Notes: generated by a model not told the origin, from the sequence alone. Counted from the stretch's first letter, positions 3,731 to 32,065 are shown. The stretch is DNA of 47,217 nt from Candidatus Uhrbacteria bacterium CG_4_9_14_3_um_filter_50_9 (GCA_002791295.1 PFWU01000030.1:1-47217), one strand, 5' to 3'. Made by a program: numbers and translations.

Positions 3731-3757
3731 AAGAATGTCGTTGATCCGACGAACGGA

Positions 3758-4849
3758 TCAGGCGGTCTGGATGCCGGCGAAGGGGCCGGCCCTGACCTCG
3801 CGGGTCGTGGGGCCATTCCTGGTCATCTCGATCACGCTGTGCAGGTCGAGCGGTATGAGCGTGAAGATGATCTCGGGCTCCTCGCGCCAGTGATCGGGAT
3901 CGTGCGGGTCCAAGGTGACGCGCTGGTCGACTGTGCGACCGGCACCGACCTCCATACGCTCGGGCGCACCGACCCGGCGGATGGCAGGCCGATGATCCAG
4001 CAGCCCTTCGGGTTCGATGCTGCGCGTCAGTCCTCTGAAACCGTCGCCGCCGAGGGACTGCGGCTCGAATGAGGACTCGAATCCCCCACGGAACGCCGAG
4101 GTGCGAATCTGCGGCTTTGCATGCTTCGAGAGGAAGACAGCGATGTCGATCCCCTCGCTGCGCCTCTCGCCGATGAGCTGCTGAGCCACGCCCTTGCCAG
4201 AGCTGGTGGGCACCAGCACGAACTGCTGGATCTTGCCGTCCTCGCCACGCCAGCCGTCACGCCAGAACGCCCCCCGTTCGATGTCCGAGATGAAGTTCTG
4301 CGGGTCCCAGCGGAAGCCACACTCCGTGCAGAAGCGGTGAGCGTCGGCGAAGGGAGTGCCATGACGGGGGCAGGTGTTGCGGTAGAACTCGAGCACGGGC
4401 TTGCTCGGACCGACGTACAGGTCACGACGCATGCTGCTCGAGGTGGGCAGTCCACTGACAGCGTTCAGACCCTGCACGCCCATGAGCACGGCCACGTTGT
4501 GGCTGTGGTGACCCATGGCATTGAAGTCGAACCACATCTCGCGAGGCATGGGGAAGCCCCGTGCGTCGACGAGGATCCGAATCATGTCGCTCGGGTCACG
4601 GGTGACCTGACTCTCGGTGAGCCCCTGGTCCTGCCAGTGGAGCTCCGTGCTGGGGATGCCGAAGAAGAAGACGGCCTGCATCGAACCCATGGCGGTGAGC
4701 CAGTGCCCGGGGACCTGGTCCTTGTAGTCACTGGCATCGAACACATGCCAGGGATGGGAACGCACGAGGCCTGTGCTGCCATCATCTCGCTTGGGGGCCA
4801 GATGGACGGCCACCTGAAGCGTGTCTGCTCGCATGACGTGGGTCGTCAT
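3758..4849 (-). CDS. Hypothetical protein with zinc-ribbon motif
   Basis: 363-aa GC-rich ORF; CPRHG...CTECGF motif; SD ACGGAG upstream. Confidence 0.65.
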   Translation of the reverse strand: MTTHVMRADTLQVAVHLAPKRDDGSTGLVRSHPWHVFDASDYKDQVPGHWLTAMGSMQAVFFFGIPSTELHWQDQGLTESQVTRDPSDMIRILVDARGFPMPREMWFDFNAMGHHSHNVAVLMGVQGLNAVSGLPTSSSMRRDLYVGPSKPVLEFYRNTCPRHGTPFADAHRFCTECGFRWDPQNFISDIERGAFWRDGWRGEDGKIQQFVLVPTSSGKGVAQQLIGERRSEGIDIAVFLSKHAKPQIRTSAFRGGFESSFEPQSLGGDGFRGLTRSIEPEGLLDHRPAIRRVGAPERMEVGAGRTVDQRVTLDPHDPDHWREEPEIIFTLIPLDLHSVIEMTRNGPTTREVRAGPFAGIQTA

Positions 4850-4941
4850 CGGTACTCCGTTGGTTGTGTCCTTACGGACGGGTGAGGGGGAAATTACTTT
4901 CCATCCACGGCTCGTTTTATCAAAACAGGCCGTAAATGGAA

Positions 4942-4967
4942 AGGAGGAGTCTTGCGTGACTCCTCCT
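4942..4967 (-). terminator. Hairpin terminator of the 4991..6424 gene
   Basis: AGGAGGAGTC-TTGCGT-GACTCCTCCT. Confidence 0.55.
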
Positions 4968-4990
4968 CGTAGGGGGGGTGGCCAGTAGGC

Positions 4991-6424: not shown

Positions 6425-6473
6425 GTTCTGCTCCTTGACAGGGTGGGTAGTCGGATAATCCGACCTGTTGAGG

Positions 6474-6528
6474 TTGCCATTTGGCGCTCTGAATACGTCT
6501 CAAACGTATGCAAGGCGCCAAATGGCAA
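6474..6528. repeat. Long nested inverted repeat upstream of the 4991..6424 gene
   Basis: TTGCCATTTGGCGC (6474-6487) / GCGCCAAATGGCAA (6515-6528), with inner ATACGT/ACGTAT. Confidence 0.9.
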
Positions 6529-6764
6529 GAATCTTTAATGAGCAGAATAACGGGCAAGAATAGACGAAAACTCTTTTTTTGTCAATACTTTGGATCAAGC
6601 TTAGTGTCGATCACACACTAAAAATAGTTGATGTAGTAAATCCTGTCAACATTGTGAGACTTTGCACAATTGACCTAAAAATGCAGCCTATTAAACAAGG
6701 AGAAACGATCGACTTCGTGTAAAAGGAGCTAAGGTGCTTTTGTTGGATTTTTTGAATTTGAAAA

Positions 6765-6786
6765 CCGGACCCGTTAAGGAGTCCGG
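6765..6786 (-). terminator. Terminator of the MopE/FG-GAP gene
   Basis: CCGGAC-loop-GTCCGG followed on the minus strand by TTTTC; preceded by GCTCATC/GATGAGC hairpin. Confidence 0.65.
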
Positions 6787-6812
6787 CTGATGCTCATCGC
6801 GTGTTGATGAGC

Positions 6813-9800
6813 TTAGAGTCCCGTTCCGAGGAACAGGTAGGTGGCGCCGGCAGCGGATCCGCCGTCGTCGTCGCCGAGGGCACAGATGAGGACGTCGTCG
6901 TAGCCGTCGCCATCCACGTCACCCGCAGCCTCGAGACACTCACCGGCGTTGTCACCAGCGCTTTCGCCCTGGAGTTCACCGTCGATGGTGCTGATCGTGG
7001 CCGTGACACTCACCGGGCCGAGCCAGACGTAGGCGGTTCCTGCGTCCGCACCCGCTCCATCGTCGCCGAGGGCGCTGACGATGAGGTCGTTGTCGCCGTC
7101 GCCGTTGACGTCTGCCACGGCTGCGTCGGTTCCGAACTCGTCGTTCGAGCTCTGTCCCACAAGCTGCAAGTCCGCCGTCGAGAGACTGGCGTCCAAGGCG
7201 CTCACGGGCGTGAGGAAGAGGTACAGAGCCCCTTCGCTCGTGCCGGTGTCGTCGTAGGCGGGCACGCCGACCATGAGGTCATCGTAACCATCCGTGTCGA
7301 CGTCACCGGTCATGAGGTACGCACCTGCGGCATCGCCGGCCACTTCACCGGTGAGGGTGTAGTTGACGACAGATGCGATCGTTCCCGAGGTCGTACTGAG
7401 CGGTCCCTCGAGGATGTAGACGGCTCCGGCGTTGCTCGCAGCGTCGTCGTTCCCTGGGGCTCCGATCAAGAGGTCATCGCCACCGTCGGCGTCGATGTCC
7501 GTGATGACGAGTGACGACCCCGCCTGATCACCAGAGGCGCCGGTGAGGAAGATCGCGTACTCGTCGATGGGTTCAGTGCCGGTGTTCACCGGACCGAACT
7601 CGATATAGACACCGCCGGCACTGGTGCCACCGGAATCCTCCATGGGGACACTGACGACGAGGTCGTCGTAGCCGTCGTGATCGAGATCGCCCACAGCGAC
7701 TGCCGCACCCGTCTCGTCTCCGGAACCGATTCCCGAACGGGTCATGTCGGCATCGGCGTCGCTCATCGAGCCCGAGAAGGGGCCCATGAAGACGTGCATG
7801 CGACCTGCACTCGAGGAGACGCCGGGGGCGCCGACCACGAGATCATCGGAACCATCTCCATCGAGGTCACCGCAGGCAAGCGAGCTACCGAAGTAGCCAC
7901 TCGAAGCGGACCCGTAGATCCGCGCGCCCGCCGTGGAGGCACTCACCGTCCCCGAGCTCACGGAGCTCGAGAACACGACGTACACGGCTCCACCCCGGGT
8001 GGTTCCCGAGCCGTTCTCGTGCGAGGCGAACACGATGTCTGGGTCGCCGTCGTCGTTGAGATCGCAGCCACCCAGCAAGGGGCCACCGGCTTCATCGCCG
8101 CTTGCCTCACCCGTCCACTTGCTCCCCGCGTCTGCGAGAGAGGACGTGCCGGAGAACCCACAGGTGTTGGGGGTTCCATCGCAGTCGTTGTCGAGCCAGT
8201 CCCCGCAGACCTCGGTCTCGCCGGGGTTCACGGAAGCTTCGGTGTCGTCGCAGTCACCCGTGTCGGACGTGAAACCACTTGGGGCCACACAATCCTCTGC
8301 AGTGCTCGCACTCGAATCACCGTACCCGTCGCCATCGCCGTCGGTGTAGTAGGTCGTGAGGACGCCTTCATCGATGCTGGTGTCGCAGTCGTTGTCGACG
8401 TAATCACACACCTCGGTCTTGCCAGGACTGACGGCGGACGTGCTGTCATCGCAGTCGGTATTGTCCGTGACGTAACCCGTGGGAGCGGAGCACCCCGTGA
8501 CCGAGTAGATCGCGTCGCCGTAGCCGTCGGCGTCGGCGTCGAGATAGTAGTCCACGGCGTCCACAGCATCCGACTCGTCGGTCGAACCGTCGCAGTCGTC
8601 ATCGTGGCCGTCGCAGTACTCGTCCGCACCGGGGTTCGTGCCTGCGTCGGTATCGTCGCAGTCGGTGTCGTCGCTCACGTAGCCCGAGGGCTGCGTGCAC
8701 GCTTCTTCCGTATCAGACACGTCACCGTAGCCGTCGGCGTCATCGTCGGCGTACCAGGTCGTCCTGTCGATGACGTCGGACTCGTCGATGAATCCGTCAC
8801 AGTCATTGTCGACCGTGTCGCACTCTTCGGCGGCATCAGGGCTGATGGCCGATGTACTGTCGTCGCAGTCGTCGGCATTGGTGACGTAGCCGGTCTCGTC
8901 TTCACAGGTCACGAGTGAACTGTCCGGATCACCGTACCCATCAGCGTCGGCGTCCAGGTAGAGGGTGTCGGGCGAATCGACCGTGCCGTCGCAGTCGTTG
9001 TCGATCAGATCCCCACAGTCCTCACGGACACTGGGATTGATGTCGGCGTTGGTGTCGTCGCAGTCCTGGTTGTTCTCGACGTAGCCAGCCGAAGCTTCAC
9101 AGGCGATCTCGGTGTAGTAACTGTCTCCGAACCCGTCACCGTCCGTATCACCGTACCAGGTCTCAGCCGTGCTGAGATCCAGATTGCCGTCATCGTCATC
9201 GATCTGCATGTCGCAGTCGTTGTCGATTCCGTCGCAGACTTCGGTTGCATCCGGGTTGATGGTGGCGTTGGTGTCGTCACAGTCCGAGGAGGACGCGACG
9301 TAACCCATGGGCTGAGTACAGGCTTCGGCCCACGTATCCGAAGCACCGAAGGTGTCGGAATCCGCGTCCTCGTACCAGGTCAGGAACAGCCCTTCGTCGA
9401 TCGCGCCGTCGCAGTTGTTGTCCACGTAGTCGCAGACTTCATCTGCGATGGGACTGATCTCGGCGTTGCCGTCGTCACAGTCTCCCGCAGTCGCAGCGTA
9501 GCCTTCCGGCATGCCACAGGCTTCGATCGTGTAGTCCTCGTTCCCGAAGCCGTCAGCGTCGCTGTCGGCGTACCAGGTATTCATGACCCCGTCGTCGATC
9601 AGGCCATTGCAGTTGTTGTCGATCGCATCGCAGATCTCCGTCGCACCCGGACGCACACTGGCGTCGGTGTCGTCGCAGTCTTCGGTCTCGGTGTATCCGT
9701 CGCCGTCGGCGTCGATGCCTGGAACGTATCCAGTGTCCGGATCGAATGCGACCTTGCCGGTGTCGCAGCCACCGATGGAAAGGACGATCGCCAGCACGCT

Positions 9801-9839
9801 CACGCACCAGCAACCGTTTCGAGTGTTCATGTGAGACAT
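6813..9839 (-). CDS. Secreted lipoprotein: about 8 MopE-type metal-binding repeats plus 7 FG-GAP (integrin-like) repeats
   Basis: Lipobox-like VLSIGGC; eight DCDD...P.A.E.CD..DN.CDG.ID modules; seven D.DGDG.DDL..GAPG repeats. SD AAGGAG before ATG at 9839. Confidence 0.85.
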   Translation of the reverse strand: MSHMNTRNGCWCVSVLAIVLSIGGCDTGKVAFDPDTGYVPGIDADGDGYTETEDCDDTDASVRPGATEICDAIDNNCNGLIDDGVMNTWYADSDADGFGNEDYTIEACGMPEGYAATAGDCDDGNAEISPIADEVCDYVDNNCDGAIDEGLFLTWYEDADSDTFGASDTWAEACTQPMGYVASSSDCDDTNATINPDATEVCDGIDNDCDMQIDDDDGNLDLSTAETWYGDTDGDGFGDSYYTEIACEASAGYVENNQDCDDTNADINPSVREDCGDLIDNDCDGTVDSPDTLYLDADADGYGDPDSSLVTCEDETGYVTNADDCDDSTSAISPDAAEECDTVDNDCDGFIDESDVIDRTTWYADDDADGYGDVSDTEEACTQPSGYVSDDTDCDDTDAGTNPGADEYCDGHDDDCDGSTDESDAVDAVDYYLDADADGYGDAIYSVTGCSAPTGYVTDNTDCDDSTSAVSPGKTEVCDYVDNDCDTSIDEGVLTTYYTDGDGDGYGDSSASTAEDCVAPSGFTSDTGDCDDTEASVNPGETEVCGDWLDNDCDGTPNTCGFSGTSSLADAGSKWTGEASGDEAGGPLLGGCDLNDDGDPDIVFASHENGSGTTRGGAVYVVFSSSVSSGTVSASTAGARIYGSASSGYFGSSLACGDLDGDGSDDLVVGAPGVSSSAGRMHVFMGPFSGSMSDADADMTRSGIGSGDETGAAVAVGDLDHDGYDDLVVSVPMEDSGGTSAGGVYIEFGPVNTGTEPIDEYAIFLTGASGDQAGSSLVITDIDADGGDDLLIGAPGNDDAASNAGAVYILEGPLSTTSGTIASVVNYTLTGEVAGDAAGAYLMTGDVDTDGYDDLMVGVPAYDDTGTSEGALYLFLTPVSALDASLSTADLQLVGQSSNDEFGTDAAVADVNGDGDNDLIVSALGDDGAGADAGTAYVWLGPVSVTATISTIDGELQGESAGDNAGECLEAAGDVDGDGYDDVLICALGDDDGGSAAGATYLFLGTGL

Positions 9840-10279
9840 TGCTGTCTCCTTATCAGCGAAAGGCGCTTTCTGCGCCCAAATAAGGGCCATTGTAACAAGC
9901 GTCATGCCTGCCCGTGATGACCCGCGCCCAACCTCCGAAAGGCGCGATTCACCACAACAAAAACCTCATGAAAACCTCCTTTATTCAATGAATCATGAAT
10001 AACTGAGGGAACATGAGGCTTTGTTTCTGTGCTATTTATGGCTGCACAAGTGGCCCTAATTGACCACTCAATCTAACGAATCAGGTGCGGAATGTCAATA
10101 CTTACTTACTTCAACATCCCAGCTAAAGCTGGAATGGCCTCGTGTGCGTGAGGCTTCAAACGGGCGTCAATCTGATCTGGAAGAATTTCTAGCCTCATGA
10201 TTCCAAGTCCAATTGGCTTCATAACCCACCTGCCCCATGACGAGACCATGAACGAGCGAAAACGTTTTGACGTCCTTTT

Positions 10280-10894
10280 TTAGTGACGCTCCAAAAGAAT
10301 ACGTTCTGTGGTTTCGACAATGACCTGTGTCTGCGGATCGATCTCGAGATTGACCCGATCTCCTACCTGTTTGTCGCCGAAACGTGTGAGCTTCAACGTC
10401 TCTGGAATAAACCAAACCTGAAATGTCCCCTGTGACTTATCGGCATCAACAACCGTTAAGCTCGCCCCATCAAGTCCGATAAACCCTTTTGAAAAAATAA
10501 ATCTCATCCACTCGGGAGCCACTTTAAACGTCATCACCTTGTTGTTATCGCTCTCTTCAAGAGAGACGATCTCCGCCATGGTCGAAACATGTCCACTCAT
10601 GGGATGTCCTCCAATCTCATCTCCCATCTTTGCCGATCGTTCGATGTTTACCCGGTCGCCTTGCTTGAGCTCACCGATCGTCGTCTTCGCAAGTGTCTCC
10701 TGCATCGCATCAAACGTCGCTCGCACACCATCAATTTTTGTGACGGTAAAGCATGTGCCGTCAATCGAAACACTTGCTCCGATTTTGAGTCCCGTGATCA
10801 GCGAGTCTGGAAGCTCCACGACAAACGTCTTAAGCCCTGGCTTGTCTTCCATCTCCACCACAGGACAAAGCGCCTGAATGATTCCTGTATACAT
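10280..10894 (-). CDS. ribE: Riboflavin synthase (alpha chain)
   Basis: MYTGIIQ start; GEIGGH-like 'GDEIGGHPMSGHV' and 'GLDGASLTV' signatures in two lumazine-binding repeats. Confidence 0.9.
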   Translation of the reverse strand: MYTGIIQALCPVVEMEDKPGLKTFVVELPDSLITGLKIGASVSIDGTCFTVTKIDGVRATFDAMQETLAKTTIGELKQGDRVNIERSAKMGDEIGGHPMSGHVSTMAEIVSLEESDNNKVMTFKVAPEWMRFIFSKGFIGLDGASLTVVDADKSQGTFQVWFIPETLKLTRFGDKQVGDRVNLEIDPQTQVIVETTERILLERH

Positions 10895-10960
10895 ACGCTT
10901 GGTAGCTTGCCGGAAGCAATATATTTTGTAAACAGAAAAGAACCCTGGTGGGTTCTCGTG

Positions 10961-11899
10961 TTACGGAGGGCTGACCTTGAGAAGTATCAAGATCTGATCG
11001 ATGGCCTGAGCCATCTCCTCGGGACCCCGAGTACTGCCTGGGCCGCGTGCGTTACCCATGACGGTGTCTCCGCCACCGAATGCGGCCTCTGGCTCCTGCT
11101 CACTCAACCTTCTCCCAATCTCGGGAACAGGAAACCAGTAGGTGACCGGGGCGTAGCGGCAGAGTGTGTAGTACCAACGCCCACTCGGCGTCTGACGAAC
11201 ACTTGCGAAGGCGCGAACCTGGCGTCGTGCCAACTTCATGCGCGCATGTGGTCCGATCTCACGTACCATCTCCCAGCCCGCACCCCTGTGCAGGGTTTCG
11301 TAGTCGTCTTCAATGGAGACAGACTTTCCACGTGCTGAAGCGAAGTCGTCGATGCGACCTGCGATACTCTCAAGCACTCCCATATGCTCCCCAGGATCCT
11401 TGCGATCAAGGGCCCCACTCATCCTGAAGTCCCAGTAGGGCTGGAAGATCCAGGCGGCCTGGCGCACGATCTCCATGTCGCGCGGCAAGTCCACGAGACC
11501 CGCACGCTTGTCCATGGTATCGACGTGACCGAAGAGCCTATTGAGTGCAGGGTTGACCATCGGCGCAACGATGAAGTGGTGCACGAAGGCGTAGTAGCAC
11601 AGGGCCACATCTGGATCACAGTCGTTCATCCAGACATGCACTTCTTCGTCCCCTGTGGGCATGAGCAGCGTGAGGAGACCATCATGGATCCAGGAGCGAA
11701 CCTGCATGGCCGATGAGAGCATGGCAGGTCTTGGTGGACCTGCATGATGATCGAAGTTGAAGTGCTGGCTCTGGAGGTCATAGCACGGAGGTGCGTTGAC
11801 GAATCCATCCACGGCGATGGAGCGGCGGGGCATCTGAGTCTTGAACGCCTCCCAGTTCATGGGAGGACGTGTGGGCTCCATGTGAAAGACGATGGGCAA
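10961..11899 (-). CDS. Hypothetical protein with FDHH motif (weak DHH/MYG1-like resemblance)
   Basis: 312-aa ORF, TTG start after SD AGGAGG; motifs FNFDHHAG, DCDPDVALCYYAFVHH, HVDTMDKRAG; own promoter. Confidence 0.55.
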   Translation of the reverse strand: MPIVFHMEPTRPPMNWEAFKTQMPRRSIAVDGFVNAPPCYDLQSQHFNFDHHAGPPRPAMLSSAMQVRSWIHDGLLTLLMPTGDEEVHVWMNDCDPDVALCYYAFVHHFIVAPMVNPALNRLFGHVDTMDKRAGLVDLPRDMEIVRQAAWIFQPYWDFRMSGALDRKDPGEHMGVLESIAGRIDDFASARGKSVSIEDDYETLHRGAGWEMVREIGPHARMKLARRQVRAFASVRQTPSGRWYYTLCRYAPVTYWFPVPEIGRRLSEQEPEAAFGGGDTVMGNARGPGSTRGPEEMAQAIDQILILLKVSPP

Positions 11900-18628: not shown

Positions 18629-20893
18629 ATGCACCTGACGAAACTCGAACTCCAAGGATTCAAGACCTTCGCAAAAAAGACACAACTTTCCTTCCTTGCA
18701 CCAAGAGAGGATCGAAAACCCATCACCACCGTGGTGGGTCCAAACGGTTCAGGAAAATCCAACCTCGCTGATGCGATCCGATGGGTCCTTGGCGAGCAGA
18801 GTTTGAAACTCCTTCGAGGAAAGAAATCGGAGGATATTATTTTTTCTGGATCTGAGGGACGTGGACGGGCTGGATTCGCAGAAGTCAGTCTCACATTCAA
18901 TAACGAAGATGGGGCCATGCCCATCGACTACAGTCAGGTTGTCATCACCCGACGTTTATTTCGTGATGGAAATTCAGAGTATCTCCTAAATGACTCAAAG
19001 GTTCGTCTCAATGACATTCAACTTCTCCTTGCACAAGCAAACGTTGGTCAGCGGTCCTACTCGGTCATTGGACAAGGCATGATTGATCATATACTTGTCT
19101 CAACCCCAGAGGAACGCAAAGCCTTTTTTGATGACGCAACGGGAGTCAAACAATTTCAGATCAAACGCCATGAGGCCATGTTGAAGCTTAAACGCACGCA
19201 TGAAAATTTAGCGGATGTCGAAATGCTTCTCACAGAAATCGAGCCACGCCTGCGTTCGCTCAAACGACAAGCCAGTCGACTGGAAAAACGTGGAGAGGTT
19301 GAAGCACAGCTGCACACACTTGAAGAACAGTACTATGGAGCTCAGTGGTGGACCCTTGTTGACCAGCTTGAAGAAGTCCGCCAAAGGTTCAGCACAGCTG
19401 AATCAGAAATCCACACAGAACGTGCTGAGCTGAAAGCCCTTGAGCAAGAGGCTGAAAAAATCGAACGGACAGACACTCAAGAAGATACAGGGCTTCAAAC
19501 ACTACAACAGCAATACCGAACGCTTCAGCGCGAACGGAACACTCTGCGTGATGAACAATTCAAAACGGAAAAAGAAATCGAACTTACCAAAGTACGTGCA
19601 CAATCGAACTGGGCACCGCTTCCACTGATTAAAATTCTTGACGAGGTCAAAGCCCTCACGACCGGACTTAAAGGATTGCGAACGATTCAAGCCCTTCCAG
19701 AAATTCTAAAAGCCATTGACGCACTCCTCCATCGTTCACAAGACCTCTCAAAACGTCTAGAGCGACCAAATCCACAGGATATTAAACCCGATCCAAAGCT
19801 CACCAAGACACTCAAAGATCTGAAGGAGAAGGAAACACACCTGGTGGATCAACTCAAACAACTGGAGCAAGAAATCGACTCCTACGCCACCAAAGAAAAA
19901 ACCGTGCGCACAGAACTGATTGAATCGCAGCGCACCCTGCGTGAGAAACAGACACAAATTCACCTCCTCGAAAACCGCCGCAATACCCTTCAGATTGATC
20001 TCGCTCGCTATGAGGAACGTCAGCAAAACCTCATTCGTGAAATGGATGAGTTTATGAAGGATCGGGCGGTGAATGTCCGAACCGAACGTGGAACAACTGA
20101 GACGATAGGCCAAGAGGCCTATGCGGAAATTCAGCGCCTGCGCTACAAACTTGAACTCATTGGTGGAATCGATCCTGAAATCATCCAGGAATATGAAGAA
20201 ATTCGTGAACGCTATGAATTTCTTGATGTACAAGTGAAGGACCTACATGGAGCCCTGCGTTCAACCGAAAAAGTTATCAAAGAACTCGACGAACAAATCT
20301 CTAAACAATCCAAAAAGGCGTTTTCGAAAATCAACAAAGAATTCCAGCGGTACTTTAAACTCCTCTTTGGCGGCGGATCTTGTGCACTTGTAAACGTGAC
20401 ACGTGAAGAGATTGACGAAGACGAGCAGGAAGGCGTGACCCCTGAACGAGCATTTGCTGACACGGGTGAAGCTGAGCGTGAAAAAGAAGATCGGATTGAA
20501 GAGGAGCTCGAGAAGCACCAAAGTCCAATCATCGGTGTCGACATCCAAGCCACTCCGCCAGGGAAACGTATGAAGGCCCTCAACCTGCTCTCAGGTGGCG
20601 AGCGTGCCCTCACGTCGATTGCGCTCGTGAGTGCCATCATGGCCGTGAACCCCGCACCGTTTGTGGTCCTCGATGAGGTGGATGCAGCGCTTGATGAGTC
20701 GAACACCACACGGTTTGCAAATATCCTCGAAGAACTCTCCGCAAATAGCCAATTCATCATCATCACCCATAACCGTGCGACCATGGAAAAGGCCGACCTC
20801 CTCTATGGAGTCACTATGAGCGACGACGGTGTCTCAAACCTCCTGAGCGTGCACCTGGAAGACGTGGCCCAAGGCAACACAGCCAGACGATAA
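18629..20893 (+). CDS. smc: SMC-like chromosome segregation ATPase, compact, apparently hinge-less
   Basis: Walker A GPNGSGKSNLADAIRWVLGE; signature LLSGGERALTSIAL; Walker B PFVVLDEVDAALDE; coiled-coil arms; 754 aa only. Confidence 0.9.
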   Translation: MHLTKLELQGFKTFAKKTQLSFLAPREDRKPITTVVGPNGSGKSNLADAIRWVLGEQSLKLLRGKKSEDIIFSGSEGRGRAGFAEVSLTFNNEDGAMPIDYSQVVITRRLFRDGNSEYLLNDSKVRLNDIQLLLAQANVGQRSYSVIGQGMIDHILVSTPEERKAFFDDATGVKQFQIKRHEAMLKLKRTHENLADVEMLLTEIEPRLRSLKRQASRLEKRGEVEAQLHTLEEQYYGAQWWTLVDQLEEVRQRFSTAESEIHTERAELKALEQEAEKIERTDTQEDTGLQTLQQQYRTLQRERNTLRDEQFKTEKEIELTKVRAQSNWAPLPLIKILDEVKALTTGLKGLRTIQALPEILKAIDALLHRSQDLSKRLERPNPQDIKPDPKLTKTLKDLKEKETHLVDQLKQLEQEIDSYATKEKTVRTELIESQRTLREKQTQIHLLENRRNTLQIDLARYEERQQNLIREMDEFMKDRAVNVRTERGTTETIGQEAYAEIQRLRYKLELIGGIDPEIIQEYEEIRERYEFLDVQVKDLHGALRSTEKVIKELDEQISKQSKKAFSKINKEFQRYFKLLFGGGSCALVNVTREEIDEDEQEGVTPERAFADTGEAEREKEDRIEEELEKHQSPIIGVDIQATPPGKRMKALNLLSGGERALTSIALVSAIMAVNPAPFVVLDEVDAALDESNTTRFANILEELSANSQFIIITHNRATMEKADLLYGVTMSDDGVSNLLSVHLEDVAQGNTARR

Positions 20894-20924: not shown

Positions 20925-20950
20925 AAATCGAAAAGAGAGCCAGTTGGCTC

Positions 20951-21388
20951 TCAGTTGTCGTTGATCCGCGTGAGAATCAAGTCATTGCGTCGGTTGTACG
21001 CCCATGTGTGGGCCTCTTCGTAGGAGTCGAAGGCTTTGAAGCAGACGTGCTCCGGACAGACCTCATCGTCACCGATAGAGGTGACCCCATCCTGGGCATC
21101 TCGCCGCCAGAAGATGGAGTCCTGATCCATCCACACGTACTTGACGACGATGTCGTGATCTTCGTACTTGGTGATCTCCCAGACGGAGACGTGGTCGACG
21201 TCGAAGACCTGGCCGATGAAGACGCTATCGCGATCAATCCAAAGCGTGTGCTTGACCCGCTCGACGAGAAGGATGATCTTCTCGAAAGGCTGGGTCAGGA
21301 ACCAGAACCACAGACATCCCACCAAGCAACCCGTCAGGACGCCTAGCAGATACCTGACTGAGACAGGCCTCTTTTCTTCTGAACTCAT
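20951..21388 (-). CDS. Hypothetical single-pass membrane protein
   Basis: GC-rich ORF, N-terminal TM (LLGVLTGCLVGCLWFWFL); GGAGTGAGC-ATG start. Confidence 0.65.
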   Translation of the reverse strand: MSSEEKRPVSVRYLLGVLTGCLVGCLWFWFLTQPFEKIILLVERVKHTLWIDRDSVFIGQVFDVDHVSVWEITKYEDHDIVVKYVWMDQDSIFWRRDAQDGVTSIGDDEVCPEHVCFKAFDSYEEAHTWAYNRRNDLILTRINDN

Positions 21389-21540
21389 GCTCACTCCAGT
21401 GGGTGACGGGTACGCTGGCCTCCCGCCAGATGGCTTCCTTTCAGATGCTCCTGCATGCGACCATTCGCAAACAGAAAACTAAACGGAAATAAAGAAGCAC
21501 CGATCATACCATAATCGAATGATTCTGACAAGATCGGTGT

Positions 21541-21570
21541 GGCGGTCCTGGATCGTTTTCCAGGACCGCC
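21541..21570 (-). terminator. Hairpin after the 21579..21914 gene
   Basis: GGCGGTCCTGG-loop-CCAGGACCGCC. Confidence 0.5.
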
Positions 21571-21578
21571 CGCTGGGG

Positions 21579-21914
21579 TCAGCTCACGATGGCGACGTAG
21601 TAGATGTCCCCGCCGGTGGGATTGTTGTCCCAGAAGACGGCGTGCATGTCCGTGCGCACGACCTTCCAGGTTTCATCTGCGAACGCCGTCGCCTCGACCC
21701 CGACGGTGGGGCTGAGGCGCACGCGAACTGCGCCTTCGAAAAAGGATGCCTCGCAGCAGCCGTTATCGAAGCTCAGGTTTCCTTCCTGGCTCCCCTGCTG
21801 CCACTCTCCAGGATCTCCACTCAGGTAGTCCGTCTTCGAGTGGCTCACTCGAAGACGGATGTTCCCACTCGGGAGGGCCTCCTGCTGCTTCCTCACCCAT
21901 TCGAGGATGTCCAT
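21579..21914 (-). CDS. Hypothetical protein
   Basis: 111-aa GC-rich ORF followed by a hairpin. Confidence 0.55.
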   Translation of the reverse strand: MDILEWVRKQQEALPSGNIRLRVSHSKTDYLSGDPGEWQQGSQEGNLSFDNGCCEASFFEGAVRVRLSPTVGVEATAFADETWKVVRTDMHAVFWDNNPTGGDIYYVAIVS

Positions 21915-22065
21915 CGTGAACCTTGTTGGTGGGAAAATCCACCGGGTGCTATCTGCCTTTACTCTGATCCAAGAGAGAATCTCAAGGAAGGTTCAGCAGT
22001 CGCACCAACCTATTCGCAAATAACTCACGAGCAGGTTGGTGTGACCAATGGTGGAGAGAAGTTTT

Positions 22066-22162
22066 CCTCAACTGACGCGCTGAACGATAGTTCAGCGATT
22101 CGGTTGAGGTCTCAAGTGATACACACACTTGAGCCGTACCCACCAGGCCGATTCCTGGTGGG
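22066..22162 (-). repeat. Three-hairpin intercistronic repeat, copy A
   Basis: CCTCAAC...GTTGAGG / CTCAAGTG...CACTTGAG / CCCACCAGG-CCGATT-CCTGGTGGG; followed by extra hairpin GGTGGTTCGAACGCGTCTGTTCGAACCACC (22168-22197). Confidence 0.95.
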
Positions 22163-22213
22163 GGTGAGGTGGTTCGAACGCGTCTGTTCGAACCACCACG
22201 TTGGGGCAGCTTT

Positions 22214-22657
22214 CTAGCGCACCAACTCGAGAGGCCGGCACATCTCGGGATCCTTGGGACTCCCGAGAAACTCGACGATCTGTTCCATGGCGTTGGGACC
22301 CACGAAGATGCGGATCTCTCGCATCAGACGACCAGTGGTTCTGGTCGTCTGCCCGATCGGGACCTGCGTCCGCGATTCGGCATGGATGACTTCGAAGGTG
22401 TCGCTGCCGACCATCACGTCGGTGGCGGGCAACATGCCCTCCTCCGGGATGTGCACCTCCACACCGAAGCGGAAGGAATGGATCAAGCCGGAGTAGATCG
22501 TCTCGATGCCGCTCGCCACGTGGGTCGATTTGCGCACAACGTAGCTGACGTCCGTGCTCAACCCCTCATACTCGAGGTCGACAACGAGGATCAGCCCATC
22601 GTTCGCCTCCTCGACATTGTACTTCGGGTGCAGCCTAGCAACATGCTTCTGGTCCAT
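22214..22657 (-). CDS. Hypothetical protein
   Basis: GC-rich ORF; SD GAGGAGTGAGC-ATG; repeat copy A just downstream. Confidence 0.6.
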   Translation of the reverse strand: MDQKHVARLHPKYNVEEANDGLILVVDLEYEGLSTDVSYVVRKSTHVASGIETIYSGLIHSFRFGVEVHIPEEGMLPATDVMVGSDTFEVIHAESRTQVPIGQTTRTTGRLMREIRIFVGPNAMEQIVEFLGSPKDPEMCRPLELVR

Positions 22658-22743
22658 GCTCACTCCTCTGGGGTTATGCTGCCTCGTTGAGACAGCTTCT
22701 TGTTCAGCTCAGAACTGGTCGATCAAATCTCTGAGCCAGTCAA

Positions 22744-22920
22744 ATATTTTTCCTCCTCAACACAGTACTCGACGTGCCACGTGATCCAAGATGGTTGGAC
22801 GCTGCGTGGATAATTCGAGAGCTGTGTTGAGGAGCCCCGTAAAACAAGTCTCCTTTGAGTACTCGTGACGGGGCAGGCTGTGCGAACGAGACTCCTCGTT
22901 GGGGTGTCTCGTTCGCACGG
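22744..22920 (-). repeat. Diverged multi-hairpin intercistronic element, copy F
   Basis: CTCCTCAACACAG...CTGTGTTGAGGAG, CCCCGT...ACGGGG, GTGCGAACGAGAC...GTCTCGTTCGCAC. Confidence 0.6.
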
Positions 22921-22938
22921 CTAGCTGTGGAGGTCGGA

Positions 22939-23301
22939 TCAGGCTGCGAGCGGAACCTGGAGAAGACACTCCACTTCCCGCAGCAGTCCCCTTGGCTGGA
23001 TGGTGAGGGTGTGGGTGTTCTGGCGCTTCTCGAGCTCACGCTGGGCGAGCCTGAGACGCTCGTCCGCATGTGTGAGCACGTCCTCGTCGACGTGAGGCAG
23101 AAGGATCACCTCACTGTAGGCGGTCACGGCCTCATCGTGATGCCGACGAGCCTCATCGAGGCGACGGCGGGCTTCGATGCCCTTCCTCGCATCGCGGAGC
23201 TTGGCCTCCGCGTGCTTGTTGGGATGGCCCGACCGACGGGTGTTGAGCGCGATCTCCGAGAGGTCGCTGAGGTGGCGGAACAACTTTTCGACTTCCTTCA
23301 C
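22939..23301 (-). CDS. Hypothetical helical/coiled-coil protein
   Basis: 120-aa ORF, GTG start with SD CCGGAG. Confidence 0.55.
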   Translation of the reverse strand: MKEVEKLFRHLSDLSEIALNTRRSGHPNKHAEAKLRDARKGIEARRRLDEARRHHDEAVTAYSEVILLPHVDEDVLTHADERLRLAQRELEKRQNTHTLTIQPRGLLREVECLLQVPLAA

Positions 23302-23325
23302 GTACAGCTCCGGTAGGTGGGTGGT

Positions 23326-23562
23326 TCAGGCTGCGACCGCTTGGCGGTGCGCCTGAAAGTGGAAGATCGCCTCGACATCACCGAAGTAGATGTCGGAGAT
23401 GTGCGGGAGGTCGGGGTCGACCTCCAGGTTGAAGTGGGCGGTGTACCCACGCTTGAGGACGGGACGACCTCGATGAACACCACGGCCACGGATCTGCACA
23501 TTGATGATGTGCCCCGAGGCCATGGCCCTCTCGATCACCCGCTTGGCGTCGATAAAGGACAT
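23326..23562 (-). CDS. Hypothetical protein
   Basis: MSFIDAKRVIERAMASGHIINVQIRGRG...; SD GGGAG before ATG 23562. Confidence 0.55.
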   Translation of the reverse strand: MSFIDAKRVIERAMASGHIINVQIRGRGVHRGRPVLKRGYTAHFNLEVDPDLPHISDIYFGDVEAIFHFQAHRQAVAA

Positions 23563-23601
23563 GAATGCTCCCAAACCTCAGGAGAGGTTGGTCTAGTGTT
23601 T

Positions 23602-23695
23602 CCTCAACTGACGCGCTGAAACGTGTTCAACGATTCGGTTGAGGTCTCAAGCGCGTAATGCTTGAGCCGTGCCCACCAGGCCGATTCCTGGTGGG
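23602..23695 (-). repeat. Three-hairpin intercistronic repeat, copy B
   Basis: Near-identical to copies A, C and D. Confidence 0.95.
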
Positions 23696-23708
23696 GAGAG
23701 TTGGGGTG

Positions 23709-24128
23709 CTACTCGGCGTCGTAGTCGAGCCCGACGACGTAGACCAGGACAGCCACCTTCTCGCTGTCCTGCTCGACGATCTCGAGCAGAAGGTGTTCCT
23801 TCCAGGCTTCGGCGAGCTCTTCGACCGCCTGCCTGGCGACCTCGATGCTTTCGAAGACCTGCTCATCGTCCAACCGGAGGCGGAAGGCGATGAGGTAGGG
23901 GTTGTAGCGGCGGCGGTGCCTCTGCACCACCATGTCGATGAAATGCACCAGCCTGAACTGGGACATCTCGCTCGACCTCACCCAGCCCACACACTCGGCG
24001 AATGCACCGAGCGAGGACGGGATCAGATCGGCCAACCTCTCGGCTGTCTCCTGCCACATCTTGGCAGCTTCGGCCTCGAGACGCTGCTTTTCCTGCAGCG
24101 CCTCGACGAGGGTGCGTTGGGGGGTCAT
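23709..24128 (-). CDS. Hypothetical protein
   Basis: 139-aa GC-rich ORF; SD AGGAG before ATG; flanked by repeats B and C. Confidence 0.6.
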   Translation of the reverse strand: MTPQRTLVEALQEKQRLEAEAAKMWQETAERLADLIPSSLGAFAECVGWVRSSEMSQFRLVHFIDMVVQRHRRRYNPYLIAFRLRLDDEQVFESIEVARQAVEELAEAWKEHLLLEIVEQDSEKVAVLVYVVGLDYDAE

Positions 24129-24177
24129 GCCTTGGCTCCTGGGAAGTGGTGGTCGAATGACCAGGCGAGGATGGATT

Positions 24178-24271
24178 CCTCAACTGACGCGATGAAACGT
24201 GTTCAACGATTCGGTTGAGGTCTCAAGCGCGTAATGCTTGAGCCGTGCCCACCAGGCCGATTCCTGGTGGG
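24178..24271 (-). repeat. Three-hairpin intercistronic repeat, copy C
   Basis: Almost identical to copy B. Confidence 0.95.
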
Positions 24272-24286
24272 CGGGAGAGAGTCTTC

Positions 24287-24688
24287 TCAGAGCGGACGGG
24301 GGGTCGTGTCGCTCCGAGTGGGCCGCTCGAACGGGAGGATCTTGCCCTCCACATCGAGCTCGTCGCCCTCGGGGTCCTCGGGCTCCTTGGGTACCCGAGG
24401 CTGAACCTTGAACCGTATGTTCACCCGACCGACGGTGAATTCCGCCTCGTCGATCTTGGTGACCATGAGAAACATGAGCCACCCCGTCATGACGACGAGG
24501 GGTGACAGCAGTCCCCAGGGTCCTGAGACCCTGAGGATGTAGATGGTGACGATCGAGGCGATCCCGATCGCGACTCCGATGATGCCCATCTTCCGACCCG
24601 TTTGGTTTCGGAAGAGGCAGGAGAGAAGCGCCACGCCCCATCCGAAGAACCCAATCTGGGTAATCCCTGAGATCACCGTTTCGAGCAT
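24287..24688 (-). CDS. Hypothetical membrane protein (2-3 TM)
   Basis: GVALLSCLF, IIGVAIGIASIVTIYIL, VVMTGWLMFLMV hydrophobic segments; SD AGGAGG before ATG. Confidence 0.6.
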   Translation of the reverse strand: MLETVISGITQIGFFGWGVALLSCLFRNQTGRKMGIIGVAIGIASIVTIYILRVSGPWGLLSPLVVMTGWLMFLMVTKIDEAEFTVGRVNIRFKVQPRVPKEPEDPEGDELDVEGKILPFERPTRSDTTPRPL

Positions 24689-24734
24689 TGTGCCTCCTGC
24701 TCGGTGTAAGACAGACAGCTTCCCTATGAAGCTT

Positions 24735-24798
24735 CCTCAACTGATCTCTCGAGCCTGCCTGCCAGTAGGCGGGTCTGAACTCGAGTGCTCGGTTGAGG
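24735..24798 (-). repeat. Diverged CCTCAAC/GTTGAGG hairpin element, copy E
   Basis: CCTCAACTGA...GGTTGAGG with a different interior; followed by a CCCCGGC...GCCGGGG stem. Confidence 0.6.
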
Positions 24799-24923
24799 AC
24801 CCCGGCGTCGACGAGTGAGTGATGCGTGAGCATCGTGTCGGCCGGGGCAGGTCGTTTAGAGGCCCCGGCGACTTCACAAGTCGAGCCGAGGACTCATCCC
24901 CTGTCGCGCAGGGGTAGCGCAGT

Positions 24924-24959
24924 TCAAAACTCGTAGAACAGGAGCGGACGGAAGTGCAT
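24924..24959 (-). CDS. Putative 11-aa micropeptide MHFRPLLFYEF
   Basis: Perfect SD GGAGG six nt before ATG; stop TGA; followed by hairpins as for the larger genes of the block. Confidence 0.35.
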   Translation of the reverse strand: MHFRPLLFYEF

Positions 24960-25386
24960 GGACTCCCTCCTTTAGTGGTGACGGTAGGGTGCAGGCACCG
25001 TCTGAAACCTGTTGCTTTCACACCAACAACCAGCTGTTTACTGGCCACTGGCGAAAGTCATCTGTTTTTCGTTACAGACAACGGGATACAGGCGCGGCCT
25101 GTCCAACGAGTCGATCTCAGCCGACCAAAGTGCAGATTGACCTCCATCTGCAAGAGGAAGACTTCGTTTAACTCAGCTGAACTGAGGGGCCCAAGTCAGA
25201 AGGCCTGTTTGTTGAGTTGGTTTGCCAGACCTCAGAGCCTCATCAACGTTGGCTCCCATGCTTTAGCGCGACCCTTCGGAGTGTTGCCACTCCCCGACGC
25301 CTCGAGTTACCCCGAGCGGTTGCTTCCAACAGCCTCGCTTCGTACTCAGGTATCACTACCCTTTCCTAACTCTCTGTTGGGCAAAC

Positions 25387-25415
25387 CGGCATAGTGCGCC
25401 GGGTCATTTTTTTAA
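25387..25415 (+). terminator. Possible terminator of an unidentified plus-strand RNA
   Basis: CCGGC-loop-GCCGG(GTCA)TTTTTTT. Confidence 0.4.
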
Positions 25416-25718
25416 TCCACGACTGGTCAATGACCCCAGGTTCAGACCTACACCGAAATGCAGCCGTTAACCCTCCAGTCGCTTCCTTTTATATGATGGG
25501 CTGAGCCCTCCTTGTATTCCGTGATCCACCCACGGAAGGGTTGCGGCCACCTGACCGCTTACTCGGCGGTGGATGCTGAGCCAGCCGAAGCTGGAGAGTT
25601 TGCGCTGGCCCACGTGGGCGAGCACGAGGAGCTTAGGGCGGCTCCTCAACGGACACGGCGAGTCTGGCTCGTCGGTTCAGTTGAAGACCGTTGCTTGGAT
25701 GTGCTACTGTGACATCGT

Positions 25719-25970
25719 ATGGATCAAGAGAGAACACTCAATGATATCCTTGAGATCGTAGGTTACCTCAAGGACAATATGGTTACTCGAGATGAACATC
25801 GACAGTCGTTGTTTGAGTTGAGATCAGATATCATGAGTCATGTTGATAGCTTTATTGGCCTTCACCAAAAACTCGACATTGAACTCGCTGCACTTCGTGC
25901 AAAGTCCGACCGGCTTGAGGGATTCGTGAAACAGCTCGCTGCGCATGCGAATATCAAACTGGAATTCTAG
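25719..25970 (+). CDS. Small hypothetical helical protein
   Basis: 83-aa ORF; promoter-like TTGAAG-17-CTACTG just upstream; terminator at 25977-25998. Confidence 0.65.
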   Translation: MDQERTLNDILEIVGYLKDNMVTRDEHRQSLFELRSDIMSHVDSFIGLHQKLDIELAALRAKSDRLEGFVKQLAAHANIKLEF

Positions 25971-25976
25971 AGTCAG

Positions 25977-25998
25977 CACCCCGCAAGGGGTGTTTTTT
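25977..25998 (+). terminator. Rho-independent terminator
   Basis: CACCCC-GCAA-GGGGTGTTTTTT. Confidence 0.85.
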
Positions 25999-26394
25999 GT
26001 TTCCACCAATCCACTCACGAGATGAGCTCAATCAATGACTCAGCTCATGGGGATGCTCATGAGTGGGTTGGTGGGTTCATCTTACAAAACCAGAGAAGAA
26101 GTGATGCAGTGACAAGAGCAAGCTCTGGTGTACATCGTGGAAATCGGGGGTGTGAAATCGAGTAAGCCAGGCCTAGTCGAATCACTTGATTTCCCGAGCC
26201 AGTCTTCTGCTGTTGCAGTCGAACTGGACACGTTTCTCTCTCCTCCTTGGCAGACCTCCCCTCAGGGAGCCACCAAGTTGGATAGAGGATCTTCATCCGG
26301 ATTTTTGAGATGAACCTTTCAGAACATCTGAAGATTCAGAAGCTCTGAGTGGCGCCCGACGAATGTCGGGCTGAGCGAGCGGCGGCCCCGGCTG

Positions 26395-26544
26395 CTAGTC
26401 GGGGTTGAAGTCGTGCCAGAGATCCTCGAGCGGATCCGACTCGACATCCTCCCCCGTGTCAGGGCCGAAGATCTCATCGAGGAGCTCGTCCTCGATGAGG
26501 TGGTTATCCGTGATGAGGGTAGGAACGATGTCGAAGGCGACCAT
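26395..26544 (-). CDS. Small acidic protein (49 aa), not in the ORF track
   Basis: MVAFDIVPTLITDNHLIEDELLDEIFGPDTGEDVESDPLEDLWHDFNPD; SD GGAGG before ATG. Confidence 0.6.
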   Translation of the reverse strand: MVAFDIVPTLITDNHLIEDELLDEIFGPDTGEDVESDPLEDLWHDFNPD

Positions 26545-26609
26545 GGAATCCTCCATTGGTGGGGGTGATTGCAGAACGCTGCAGACGGTATCTGCAAGGT
26601 TCTGTCATC

Positions 26610-26672
26610 ACGGTGTAAGGAACGGGCCAGCGAGTTGCCTGAACAAGCTCAGATTCACCGGCCATCCTTGAG
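26610..26672 (-). repeat. Second repeat family, copy 1
   Basis: Minus: GGATGGCCGGTGA...CAACTCGCTGGCCCGTTCCTTACACCG. Confidence 0.8.
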
Positions 26673-27134
26673 ACTCAAGTGTCTAGTTCCCGAGCTTGTC
26701 GACGGACGAGTGCTTCAGTTTCAGGGATGTTTAGTTGGTGAAGGTACCGCCTCAGAACCTCCGAGCTCTCTCAGAGATTCAGTTGGCGGGATCGATTCAT
26801 GCGTTGAATCGACCCTGCGTGAGATGACCAGTAGACGCTGGTCGCGCGATCCTCGCAGAGATCAACTGCCACACCCAATGCCGACTCAAGGGATGTGGTG
26901 GTGGTGGGAACCCAGTCGGGGGTCATAAGGTAGGCATTTATGTCTGCGCGTTCCTACTCGCGCTTGGGTCAGGTATCTGTTTTCTCCTTTGCGGTATATT
27001 TCCGCGGTGAAGATTCCCTTTCCTTAACCGGCCTGCGACGAACCCGAGGGTGTCGCTTCGCTGGGGTCAAGGGGTTTGGGGAATCGGTGTATCCGCACTA
27101 TGTTTTTCGTCCCGTGCGGATTGGGACTAGCAGG

Positions 27135-27695
27135 CTACTTCGCGGCGGCGGCCTGCTGGGGGGCGGGGGTGGCCTCGAGGGCGGCGATCCGCTCCTCGAG
27201 CCGGGTGACCTCCTTGGCCTGGCGGGCGAGCTCGCGCAGGCGGTAGTCCGCCTCGGCGAGCAGGTCCCGGGTGAGCTCGGCGCGCTGACGCTGGGAGCGC
27301 TTGAGGCCGTTGCCGGCGAGCAGGCTCTCGATCGAGTCGAGCCGGCCCGAGACCAGCATCATCATGCTCTCGACCGCCGACTCGACGTCCAGATCGACGT
27401 GCGCCTTGCCCGTGCCGGCGAGGCCGGCCTCGCGGAGGGCCTCGACCGCCTTGTGCCGCAGGGCGCGGTACTTGCGGGACGCACCCTCCATCTGGCGATG
27501 GAGGCGCTCGAGCTGGGTGGGCTTCTTCTCGGTGGAGGTCTTCTTGGTCTTGGTGGTGGGGGCCAGGGCGGGGGTCTTGGTCTTGGGAGCCAGGGCGACC
27601 TCCAGGATCTGCATGGGGTGCATCGACTCGACGAGGGCGAGGGCCTTGCGGGCGGAGGCGAGGCGGGCGGCGGTGGGGGTCAGGGTCTTGGCCAT
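27135..27695 (-). CDS. Hypothetical Ala/Lys-rich helical protein
   Basis: MAKTLTPTAARLASARKALALVES...; SD AAAGGAG before internal ATG 27695. Confidence 0.65.
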   Translation of the reverse strand: MAKTLTPTAARLASARKALALVESMHPMQILEVALAPKTKTPALAPTTKTKKTSTEKKPTQLERLHRQMEGASRKYRALRHKAVEALREAGLAGTGKAHVDLDVESAVESMMMLVSGRLDSIESLLAGNGLKRSQRQRAELTRDLLAEADYRLRELARQAKEVTRLEERIAALEATPAPQQAAAAK

Positions 27696-27782
27696 GGTGG
27701 AACTCCTTTCGGGCACGGCCCGAAGGTGGTGGGAAGGGGTCATGCCGGCCAGGCACGACTCCGAGGGTAAGGAAGGGATCTT

Positions 27783-27887
27783 CCTCAACAGAGTGTCTGA
27801 ATAAATGTCTTATGTTCAGAAGCTCAGTTGAGGTCTCAAGTGATGCGTACACTTGAGCCGTGCCCACCAGGCCGATTCCTGGTGGGG
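27783..27887 (-). repeat. Three-hairpin intercistronic repeat, copy D
   Basis: CCTCAAC...GTTGAGG, CTCAAGTG...CACTTGAG, CCCACCAGG...CCTGGTGGG. Confidence 0.95.
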
Positions 27888-27899
27888 GTCAGAGCGGGG

Positions 27900-28136
27900 T
27901 CAGTGGCCACCGAACGTCACAGAGACTTCGGCGGCGTCGAGATAACAGCCGGGGTTGTGGTAGTCACACACCCCACCGTCGACCTCGCAGTCGACCTCCC
28001 ACTTCCCCGTCACCTCGAAGGTGACGATGATCGAGTACTCGACGTACTCGATCACATGGCTGCCCGGAAGCAGCCCGTGGACGAACTTGGGCTCATGCCC
28101 ATCCTTGACGAGCACGACCCAGGTCTTCTTCCACAT
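27900..28136 (-). CDS. Hypothetical protein
   Basis: 78-aa ORF, SD AAAGGAG before ATG; repeat copy D downstream. Confidence 0.6.
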   Translation of the reverse strand: MWKKTWVVLVKDGHEPKFVHGLLPGSHVIEYVEYSIIVTFEVTGKWEVDCEVDGGVCDYHNPGCYLDAAEVSVTFGGH

Positions 28137-28196
28137 ACGCTCTCCTTTTGCCGATATGTTCCGGCTAGGGGGTTTCTATCGTCGAGCACTTGTTCA

Positions 28197-28240
28197 ACGC
28201 GCGGGGAGGGTAGATCTGTGTGGATCTACCCTCCCCGCGT
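28197..28240. repeat. Long perfect hairpin in the leader of 27900..28136
   Basis: CGCGGGGAGGGTAGATC-loop-GATCTACCCTCCCCGCG. Confidence 0.85.
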
Positions 28241-28259
28241 GTTGGCAGTGATTAGAACC

Positions 28260-28320
28260 GGTGTAAAGAACGGGCCGGCGAGTTGTTGATCTTGCGATCA
28301 GGCTCACCGGCCATCCGTGG
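28260..28320 (-). repeat. Second repeat family, copy 2
   Basis: Minus: GGATGGCCGGTGA...CAACTCGCCGGCCCGTTCTTTACACCG. Confidence 0.8.
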
Positions 28321-28351
28321 GGTGCAATTGCTTGCGCGCCAGGGATGTAAC

Positions 28352-28426
28352 AAAAAAAGCTGATTGTTGATTCGTTCTGGTAGGAAAGATTCAACAATCA
28401 GCCAAAAAGCCTTCATGGCTTTTTTC
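28352..28426 (-). terminator. Tandem terminators in the leader of the small-gene block
   Basis: Minus: AAAAAGCC-ATGAA-GGCTTTTT, then GCTGATTGTTGA...TCAACAATCAGCTTTTTTT. Confidence 0.7.
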
Positions 28427-28505
28427 AATACTCTCTCCCCAGAGAATAGGTAATTGTAGGGTTCACAGATGAAAGGCTCTTCTTCCTCTCATCCTTGATG
28501 CGCAC

Positions 28506-28534
28506 ACTCTACCTCATTTTGACCATTTTGTCAA
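28506..28534 (-). promoter_or_regulatory. Promoter reading into the small-gene block
   Basis: Minus: TTGACA - 17 nt - TAGAGT. Confidence 0.65.
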
Positions 28535-28718
28535 GAGTGTCTGACATTATTTATAGTAAATTTAGCCATTTTTTATGTTAAGAACTCCAGAATTGCCGTT
28601 CAGGTGTTTATATATTCCTGCAAAACCCTCACTGCCTGAGGAGGGTGATTTATCACCAAAATCTTGTAATCAGATTGATGCCAGAACCGACACGTTCTCG
28701 TATTTCCTAATTGATTGA

Positions 28719-31941: not shown

Positions 31942-31960
31942 GGTTTTACAATTGAAGAAA

Positions 31961-32065
31961 CGTATAAAGAGTGCAGCGAGGGATCTAGCCCAATGACCTG
32001 CCCGCAACCTTTCGAGCAATCGAAACAGGTGCGAAATCTAGCCCCATTGTGGGAAAGATGCCGAG
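31961..32065 (+). promoter_or_regulatory. SAM riboswitch (S-box, SAM-I or SAM-I/IV-like)
   Basis: AAAGAGTGCAGCGAGGGATCTAGCCCAATGACCTGCCCGCAACC...CAGGTGCGAAATCTAGCCCC...GGGAAAGATG matches S-box core motifs; promoter upstream, terminator downstream. Confidence 0.8.

Follow-up and report, generated by a model that had tools for sequence, protein, structure and literature searches.

What role could a repeated hairpin element play that stands behind one small orphan gene after another at a single chromosomal site? This question arises from a 7.9 kb minus-strand block in Candidatus Uhrbacteria bacterium CG_4_9_14_3_um_filter_50_9 (source genome G000; 1.07 Mb, 98.96% complete), located between smc (18629-20893, plus strand) and rpsP (28793, plus strand) on a stretch of 47,217 nucleotides (GCA_002791295.1 PFWU01000030.1:1-47217), hereafter the window. 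An initial annotation of this DNA had reported four near-identical elements of ~95-105 bp in the block, each made of three hairpins and placed behind an orphan gene, and had proposed that selection acts on a folded nucleic acid. We analyzed these elements in the window and in related genomes, and the reading that we favor, to which we give slightly less than an even chance, is that of a turnover-prone, cassette-like operon at a fixed site, whose cistrons would be separated by RNA processing or stabilizing elements.

The three-hairpin element and its H1 module

All four elements were recovered (A to D; Table 1), starting 51, 13, 15 and 13 nt past the stop codons of minus-strand open reading frames (ORFs) ending at 22214, 23709, 24287 and 27900, respectively. 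On the minus (coding) strand, each folds as three hairpins, with energies of −47 to −77 kcal/mol including flanks; H1, the last of the three, takes a different minimum-free-energy fold in copy C. In transcript order, the element consists of P3 (CCCACCAGG-AATCGG-CCTGGTGGG), a spacer with an ACGG end, P2 (CTCAAG...CTTGAG) and, after 1 nt, H1, which combines an 11-bp lower helix carrying the conserved CCUCAAC/GUUGAGG with a symmetric internal loop of 2-3 nt and a covarying upper helix. Position 14 is paired in about two thirds of the copies.

A blastn search of the 1.07 Mb genome returned no copy beyond the four, and a covariance model of H1 found seven copies in the same genome, all within the block. 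The count of four therefore holds for full elements and overlooked the H1 copies at 22755, 24735 and 25644, which have other upstream hairpins. Neither the elements nor a ~400 nt RNA encoded in the block (see below) matched any family at the gathering threshold in a scan against Rfam 15, and no description of this array or element was found in the open-access literature.

H1 covaries and most likely folds in the sense transcript

The covariation suggested by the initial annotation proved strong, both in H1 (44 distinct copies) and in the three-hairpin set (16 copies). Across the distinct H1 copies, 91.6% of the cells were paired compared to 83.1% in shuffles, and the covariation score was 0.262 versus 0.140 in shuffled alignments (0/500 shuffles), and at most 0.061 with partners slid. 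H1 is formed by ungapped 18+18 arms, the pairing of which fell from 91.6% to about 40% when slid by one. Compensatory change was observed at positions 8, 9 and 14-17, and positions 1-7 vary almost solely by G•U. In an alignment fitted to the model, all three stems covary among the 16 three-hairpin copies (seven genomes), with both-side change in 26/32 pairs versus 11.7 expected.

To which strand this selection applies can be judged from mismatches, given that an A•C on the sense strand is a would-be G•U on the opposite strand. Paired positions of the 49 clean H1 copies contained 42 G•U and 7 A•C on the sense strand; with each genome, position and type counted once, the ratio was 21 to 7 (p 0.006), the events not being fully independent, and it weakened to 23 to 11 (p 0.03) when three doubtful copies were kept. 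In the P2/P3 stems it was 6 to 0. Minimum free energy gave no clear preference between the two H1 strands (32 to 25), and only the pair-type count separated them. Judging from this asymmetry, it is most likely the sense transcript that folds, and not DNA, a refinement of the proposed selection on a folded nucleic acid, which the covariation itself supports.

H1 is located at gene ends and carries no U-tract

Using simple in-house ORF calls, we found 47 of the 49 clean H1 copies to be intergenic (52% under random placement, p 1e-11), at a median distance of 66 nt past the stop codon and 52 nt ahead of the next start, so that the proposed association with gene ends holds well beyond the four initial elements. 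Directly ahead of H1, separated from it by 1 nt, 32/49 copies (5.7 expected) have a 5-nt arm that can pair with a complementary sequence a short way upstream. Sequestration of the Shine-Dalgarno sequence was rejected as a general role on account of the 52 nt median to the start codon.

As the initial annotation had argued, these hairpins are not ordinary terminators, as indicated by the absence of a U-tract from all copies (0/49). The stable hairpins soon after stop codons could still be U-less, non-canonical terminators or roadblocks ending the transcript of each cistron; however, the leader, the array end and the neighboring genes have canonical U-tract terminators, and conserved promoters were not observed behind the individual elements, so that termination there would silence the downstream genes. 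We consider this explanation quite improbable.

The smc-rpsP interval is a fixed site with changing gene content

The gene order clpP-dhh-smc-interval-rpsP-rlmN is common to relatives. The interval measures 75-130 bp (empty) in G020, G003, L083 and L084 and up to 29 kb in G016, where G handles stand for genomes and L handles for loci, several of the latter belonging to the same genomes and hence not being independent. Its genes are small, mostly orphan and oriented toward smc, and their content differs between genomes, even within genera. Among 111 array ORFs, 44 fell into 17 clusters, 12 of them cross-genome and with varying order.

A blastn search with one element in 59 relatives matched G005, G028 and G026, in all cases adjoining smc. 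When 43 genomes of the family (Candidatus Uhrbacteria) were searched with the H1 model, 13 were positive, and in 12 of these every match lay within the smc-rpsP interval; in the 13th (G007), the match lies on an unplaced contig, and the contig that carries smc stops 0.8 kb past that gene. The genomes are metagenome-assembled genomes (MAGs), the arrays of G005, G035 and G019 ending at contig ends, and, the same locus being present in independent assemblies of many MAGs, it is not explained by assembly error or contamination. Throughout the family, the locus is thus a fixed site between smc and rpsP, rather than a local oddity. Together with the intergenic placement of H1, this bears out the suggested modular block of genes and structured RNA as far as an array of orphan genes and elements is concerned.

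Among 292 genomes of the class, a single true-looking H1 member was found outside the family, in G135. Its lower stem, CCTCGAT/ATCGAGG, is a compensated form of CCTCAAC/GTTGAGG, and it abuts an upstream hairpin, followed by a small gene. A match of the H1 model in G241 was discarded as an ordinary U-tract terminator.

These data bear on two explanations that invoke repeats as such. Functionless repeats copied along with the genes, at most providing homology for array expansion or contraction, would account for the frequent 97-100% identity of copies inside one genome, but the cross-genus conservation with compensatory changes and the covarying lower stem in another family (G135) make this very improbable. 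Mobilization by a RAYT/Y1 transposase, as for repetitive extragenic palindromic (REP) sequences, would be in line with imperfect, intergenic palindromes, and with REP/BIME elements H1 shares the intercistronic position and a possible role in mRNA stabilization. However, H1 is confined to one locus, with all copies in the source genome lying in one block and not dispersed, and Y1_Tnp was not found in several array genomes (G000, G016 and G031, of which G016 has the largest array), rendering such an origin scarcely conceivable.

Comparison with integron cassette arrays

Because its anatomy is so similar, the integron provides the main rival reading, in which H1 would act like attC, and each gene would move together with its element as a cassette through recombination of folded single-stranded DNA. 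Both arrays have a terminal promoter, small genes that lack their own and are followed by a palindromic element (here in many cases), strict restriction to a fixed site and high turnover, with empty sites elsewhere; moreover, the arms CCTCAAC/GTTGAGG recall R boxes, with AAC/GTT facing inward. Sites of the attC type follow the consensus RYYYAAC/GTTRRRY, which the lower-stem ends of H1 do not fit. A PF00589 search returned one tyrosine recombinase each in G000 (XerC-like), G005, G026, G061 and G033, and no IntI. Precise cassette junctions were not seen, though element-separated gene content differs within genera, and, unlike integrons, the H1 arrays belong mostly to one bacterial family. In attC, the bottom-strand hairpin is the substrate and extrahelical bases are located on the R''-L'' arm (PMC2727003), whereas the symmetric arms of H1 contain no extrahelical base and, by the indirect test of G•U versus A•C, the sense strand preserves its pairing better. 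Where attC has an unpaired central spacer, H1 shows the symmetric internal loop of 2-3 nt and a position 14 that pairs in about two thirds of the copies. Overall, we regard integron-like recombination as distinctly unlikely, and retain it at that level because an unrecognized recombinase could rescue it.

A conserved promoter and leader precede the array

A promoter motif, TTGACAAAA...TGnTAnnnT, is common to 11 genomes, and an intrinsic terminator follows ~100-140 nt past the promoter in seven genomes (G000, G016, G028, G031, G012, G026 and G004). A GGGGAGAGAG box, invariant in all eight aligned leaders, is a candidate site for a termination-relieving factor or ligand. In the leader of the window (28351-28447, minus strand), the upper part of the terminator has a pyrimidine stretch (TCTTTCC/TTTCTCC) complementary to GGGGAGAGAG, which would permit an antiterminator pairing. 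Past the leader, a strict scan of the arrays detected none or few sense intrinsic terminators. This layout predicts one long, conditionally expressed transcript.

The pR'-tR' late operon of phage lambda consists of a strong promoter, a terminator ~100-200 nt downstream and a long operon. The Uhrbacteria array resembles it in its promoter, its near terminator ahead of the first gene (seven genomes) and its long operon, and differs in that no antiterminator was identified, no sign of a prophage was seen and the cargo is orphan. Because of this leader, antitermination is the other serious rival: the elements would be put/nut-like antitermination or pausing elements that keep the polymerase moving along the array past the leader terminator. 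A promoter with a close terminator, and beyond it as much as 29 kb in which sense terminators are scarce, is the layout of an antiterminated phage late operon, and the multi-hairpin elements recur along the unit. However, repeated sites would be superfluous in arrays without internal terminators, and H1 is not found in most array leaders (G023 being the exception), whereas known cis antitermination RNAs are promoter-near. We therefore judge this role unlikely.

A model of boundary elements in one transcription unit

The cassette-like operon that we favor may work as follows. The block would form one transcription unit, with a conserved promoter, a promoter-proximal terminator and then a changing series of small GC-rich, mostly orphan genes. 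Cistron boundaries would tend to carry an RNA element in which H1 is preceded, on the side of the gene, by one or two hairpins (H2; P3+P2 in the four initial elements). H2 might shield the preceding cistron at its 3' end, and H1 might be the recognition site of an RNase III-like endoribonuclease or of an RNA-binding protein, separating or insulating adjacent cistrons. A gene-plus-element unit could thereby function anywhere in the array, needing no fit to its neighbors.

The R sites of phage T7 are RNase III processing hairpins between the cistrons of polycistronic phage mRNA. Similarly, H1 is a ~20-bp imperfect hairpin with an internal loop, located between cistrons of what the layout suggests is a single transcript. 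In contrast to R sites, the lower stem of H1 includes a conserved 7-bp sequence, further hairpins stand at a distance of 1 nt and the genes around are chromosomal orphans; cleavage of H1 is a prediction.

Several points weigh against this model. Since RNase III usually requires no conserved 7-bp sequence, CCUCAAC/GUUGAGG suggests a partner more specific than RNase III. Many cistron boundaries are without H1, e.g. in G016 beyond 16 kb, and in the arrays of G004 and G035 (L053 and L054) other hairpin types replace it, these being comparable hairpins between genes, whose conserved lower stem (CTTTTCCAGA/TCTGCGAAAG) is not that of H1. Finally, in 4/49 copies the spacing between GAGG of H1 and the following start codon suits a Shine-Dalgarno sequence, and a translational role is possible for these.

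Other features of the block and its surroundings

Table 1. Features of the smc-rpsP block in the window, in order of array transcription.
Feature	Position	Strand	Basis or relatives
Array promoter TTGACA-17-TAGAGT, dyad TTGAC-N6-GTCAA over spacer	28506..28534	-	motif in 11 genomes
Leader box ATTCTCTGGGGAGAGAGT	28430..28447	-	leader alignment
Promoter-proximal intrinsic terminator, possible attenuator	28351..28402	-	equivalents in G016, G028, G031, G012, G026, G004
Orphan ORF, 78 amino acids (aa)	27900..28136	-	
Three-hairpin element D (H1 = 27783-27833)	27783..27886	-	covariance model and fold
Orphan ORF, 186 aa, coiled-coil-like	27135..27695	-	relatives in G005, G031, G060 arrays
Small ORF, 49 aa	26395..26544	-	
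Opposite-strand gene, 83 aa, host-like GC3 0.46	25719..25970	+	homologues in G005, G028, G012, G033 arrays
Divergent H1 copy	25644..25686	-	H1 model
Conserved structured noncoding RNA, ~400 nt	25061..25488	-	smc-rpsP interval of 11 genomes; no Rfam match
Micro-ORF MHFRPLLFYEF with Shine-Dalgarno	24924..24959	-	conserved past the RNA in other arrays
Element F: H1 (24735-24798) and C/G-rich upstream hairpin	24735..24857	-	fold
Orphan membrane-like ORF, 133 aa	24287..24688	-	relative in G026 array
Three-hairpin element C (H1 = 24178-24220)	24178..24271	-	H1 model
Orphan ORF, 139 aa	23709..24128	-	
Three-hairpin element B (H1 = 23602-23644)	23602..23695	-	H1 model
Orphan ORF, 78 aa	23326..23562	-	
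Orphan ORF, 120 aa, GTG start	22939..23301	-	relative in G005 array
Element E: H1 (22755-22832) and two upstream hairpins	22755..22920	-	fold and H1 model
Orphan ORF, 147 aa	22214..22657	-	
Three-hairpin element A (H1 = 22066-22109)	22066..22162	-	H1 model
Orphan ORF, 111 aa	21579..21914	-	
Orphan ORF, 145 aa, last in the array	20951..21388	-	
Canonical stem and T-tract closing the distal array end	20935..20952	-	terminator scan

As listed in Table 1, the block also encodes a structured noncoding RNA, kept in the arrays of G000, G012, G023, G026, G028, G031, G033 and G061 and in near-empty intervals. A 168-position model detected exactly one copy each in 12 genomes of the family and in G109, which belongs to another family; 11 of the 12 copies in the family lie in the smc-rpsP interval, that of G011 being on an unlinked contig. 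Compensatory changes were found in 16 of 29 predicted pairs, and comparison with Rfam gave no family match. The RNA resembles neither transfer-messenger RNA (tmRNA) nor RNase P RNA, and neither assignment was supported. In the source genome (99% complete), no tmRNA above the Rfam threshold and no match to class A RNase P RNA were detected. Counterparts of the micro-ORF downstream of this RNA elsewhere include MTYPLLFYDH, VTFPLLFYES and MTYPLLFYDV.

The ~ten small ORFs of the block contain almost no recognizable domain, and GC content at third codon positions (GC3) of the array ORFs is 0.77-0.97, compared to 0.48-0.55 in smc, rlmN and clpP. Searches with 85 array proteins against Pfam, PHROG and PADLOC gave scattered matches only, mainly phage-like deoxynucleoside monophosphate kinases, which in three genomes precede the promoter. 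A phage origin was rejected, no match to IMG/VR patterns or phage DNA being found. One of the array ORF clusters is a family of 53-72 aa proteins with a Cys/His-rich C-terminal motif, HPxTGCxCxPxPxWxxxCxC (L044:2491-2709, L032:16500-16972 and L034:10946-11131).

Further repeats were observed as well. Within the block, another segment is repeated at 26611-26681 and 28259-28330 (CGGTGTAA.GAACGGGCC.GCGAGTTG...CACCGGCCATCC). In its distal part, the 29 kb array of G016 carries three copies of a highly structured repeat of ~200 nt, GACGTGC..CACGATTGGGAAACGGGGCAGC... (L044 10585-10825, 13595-13825 and 14580-14705), which looks like another RNA family. In G028, a Y1-transposase-like gene (C7:18192-18509) is situated between array and smc.

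Elsewhere in the window, further high-GC orphan genes stand amid core genes (2044-11899 and 49-630), several of which apparently end in hairpins lacking H1; among them is a MopE/FG-GAP-like repeat protein of ~1000 aa (6813-9905). An S-adenosylmethionine (SAM) riboswitch was recognized at 31959-32064 on the plus strand (Rfam RF00162, 51 bits).

Implications for gene turnover in Candidatus Uhrbacteria

Genomes of Patescibacteria are reduced, and yet a single site in this family, headed by a conserved promoter, retains as much as 29 kb of orphan genes that change rapidly. This locus yields a new family of covarying RNA elements, a new structured noncoding RNA and a conserved attenuator-like leader, and supplies candidate lineage-specific functions, possibly in host interaction. 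A bolder and rather doubtful proposal, built on these sequence comparisons, is that the site may be a recombinase-free gene platform, in which one regulated promoter would serve exchangeable orphan genes, boundary RNA would make each gene autonomous and the ~400 nt RNA would take part in control or upkeep. If so, genes could come, go or change order with no damage to their neighbors, and the locus would offer a testable case of gene modules accumulating without an integrase.

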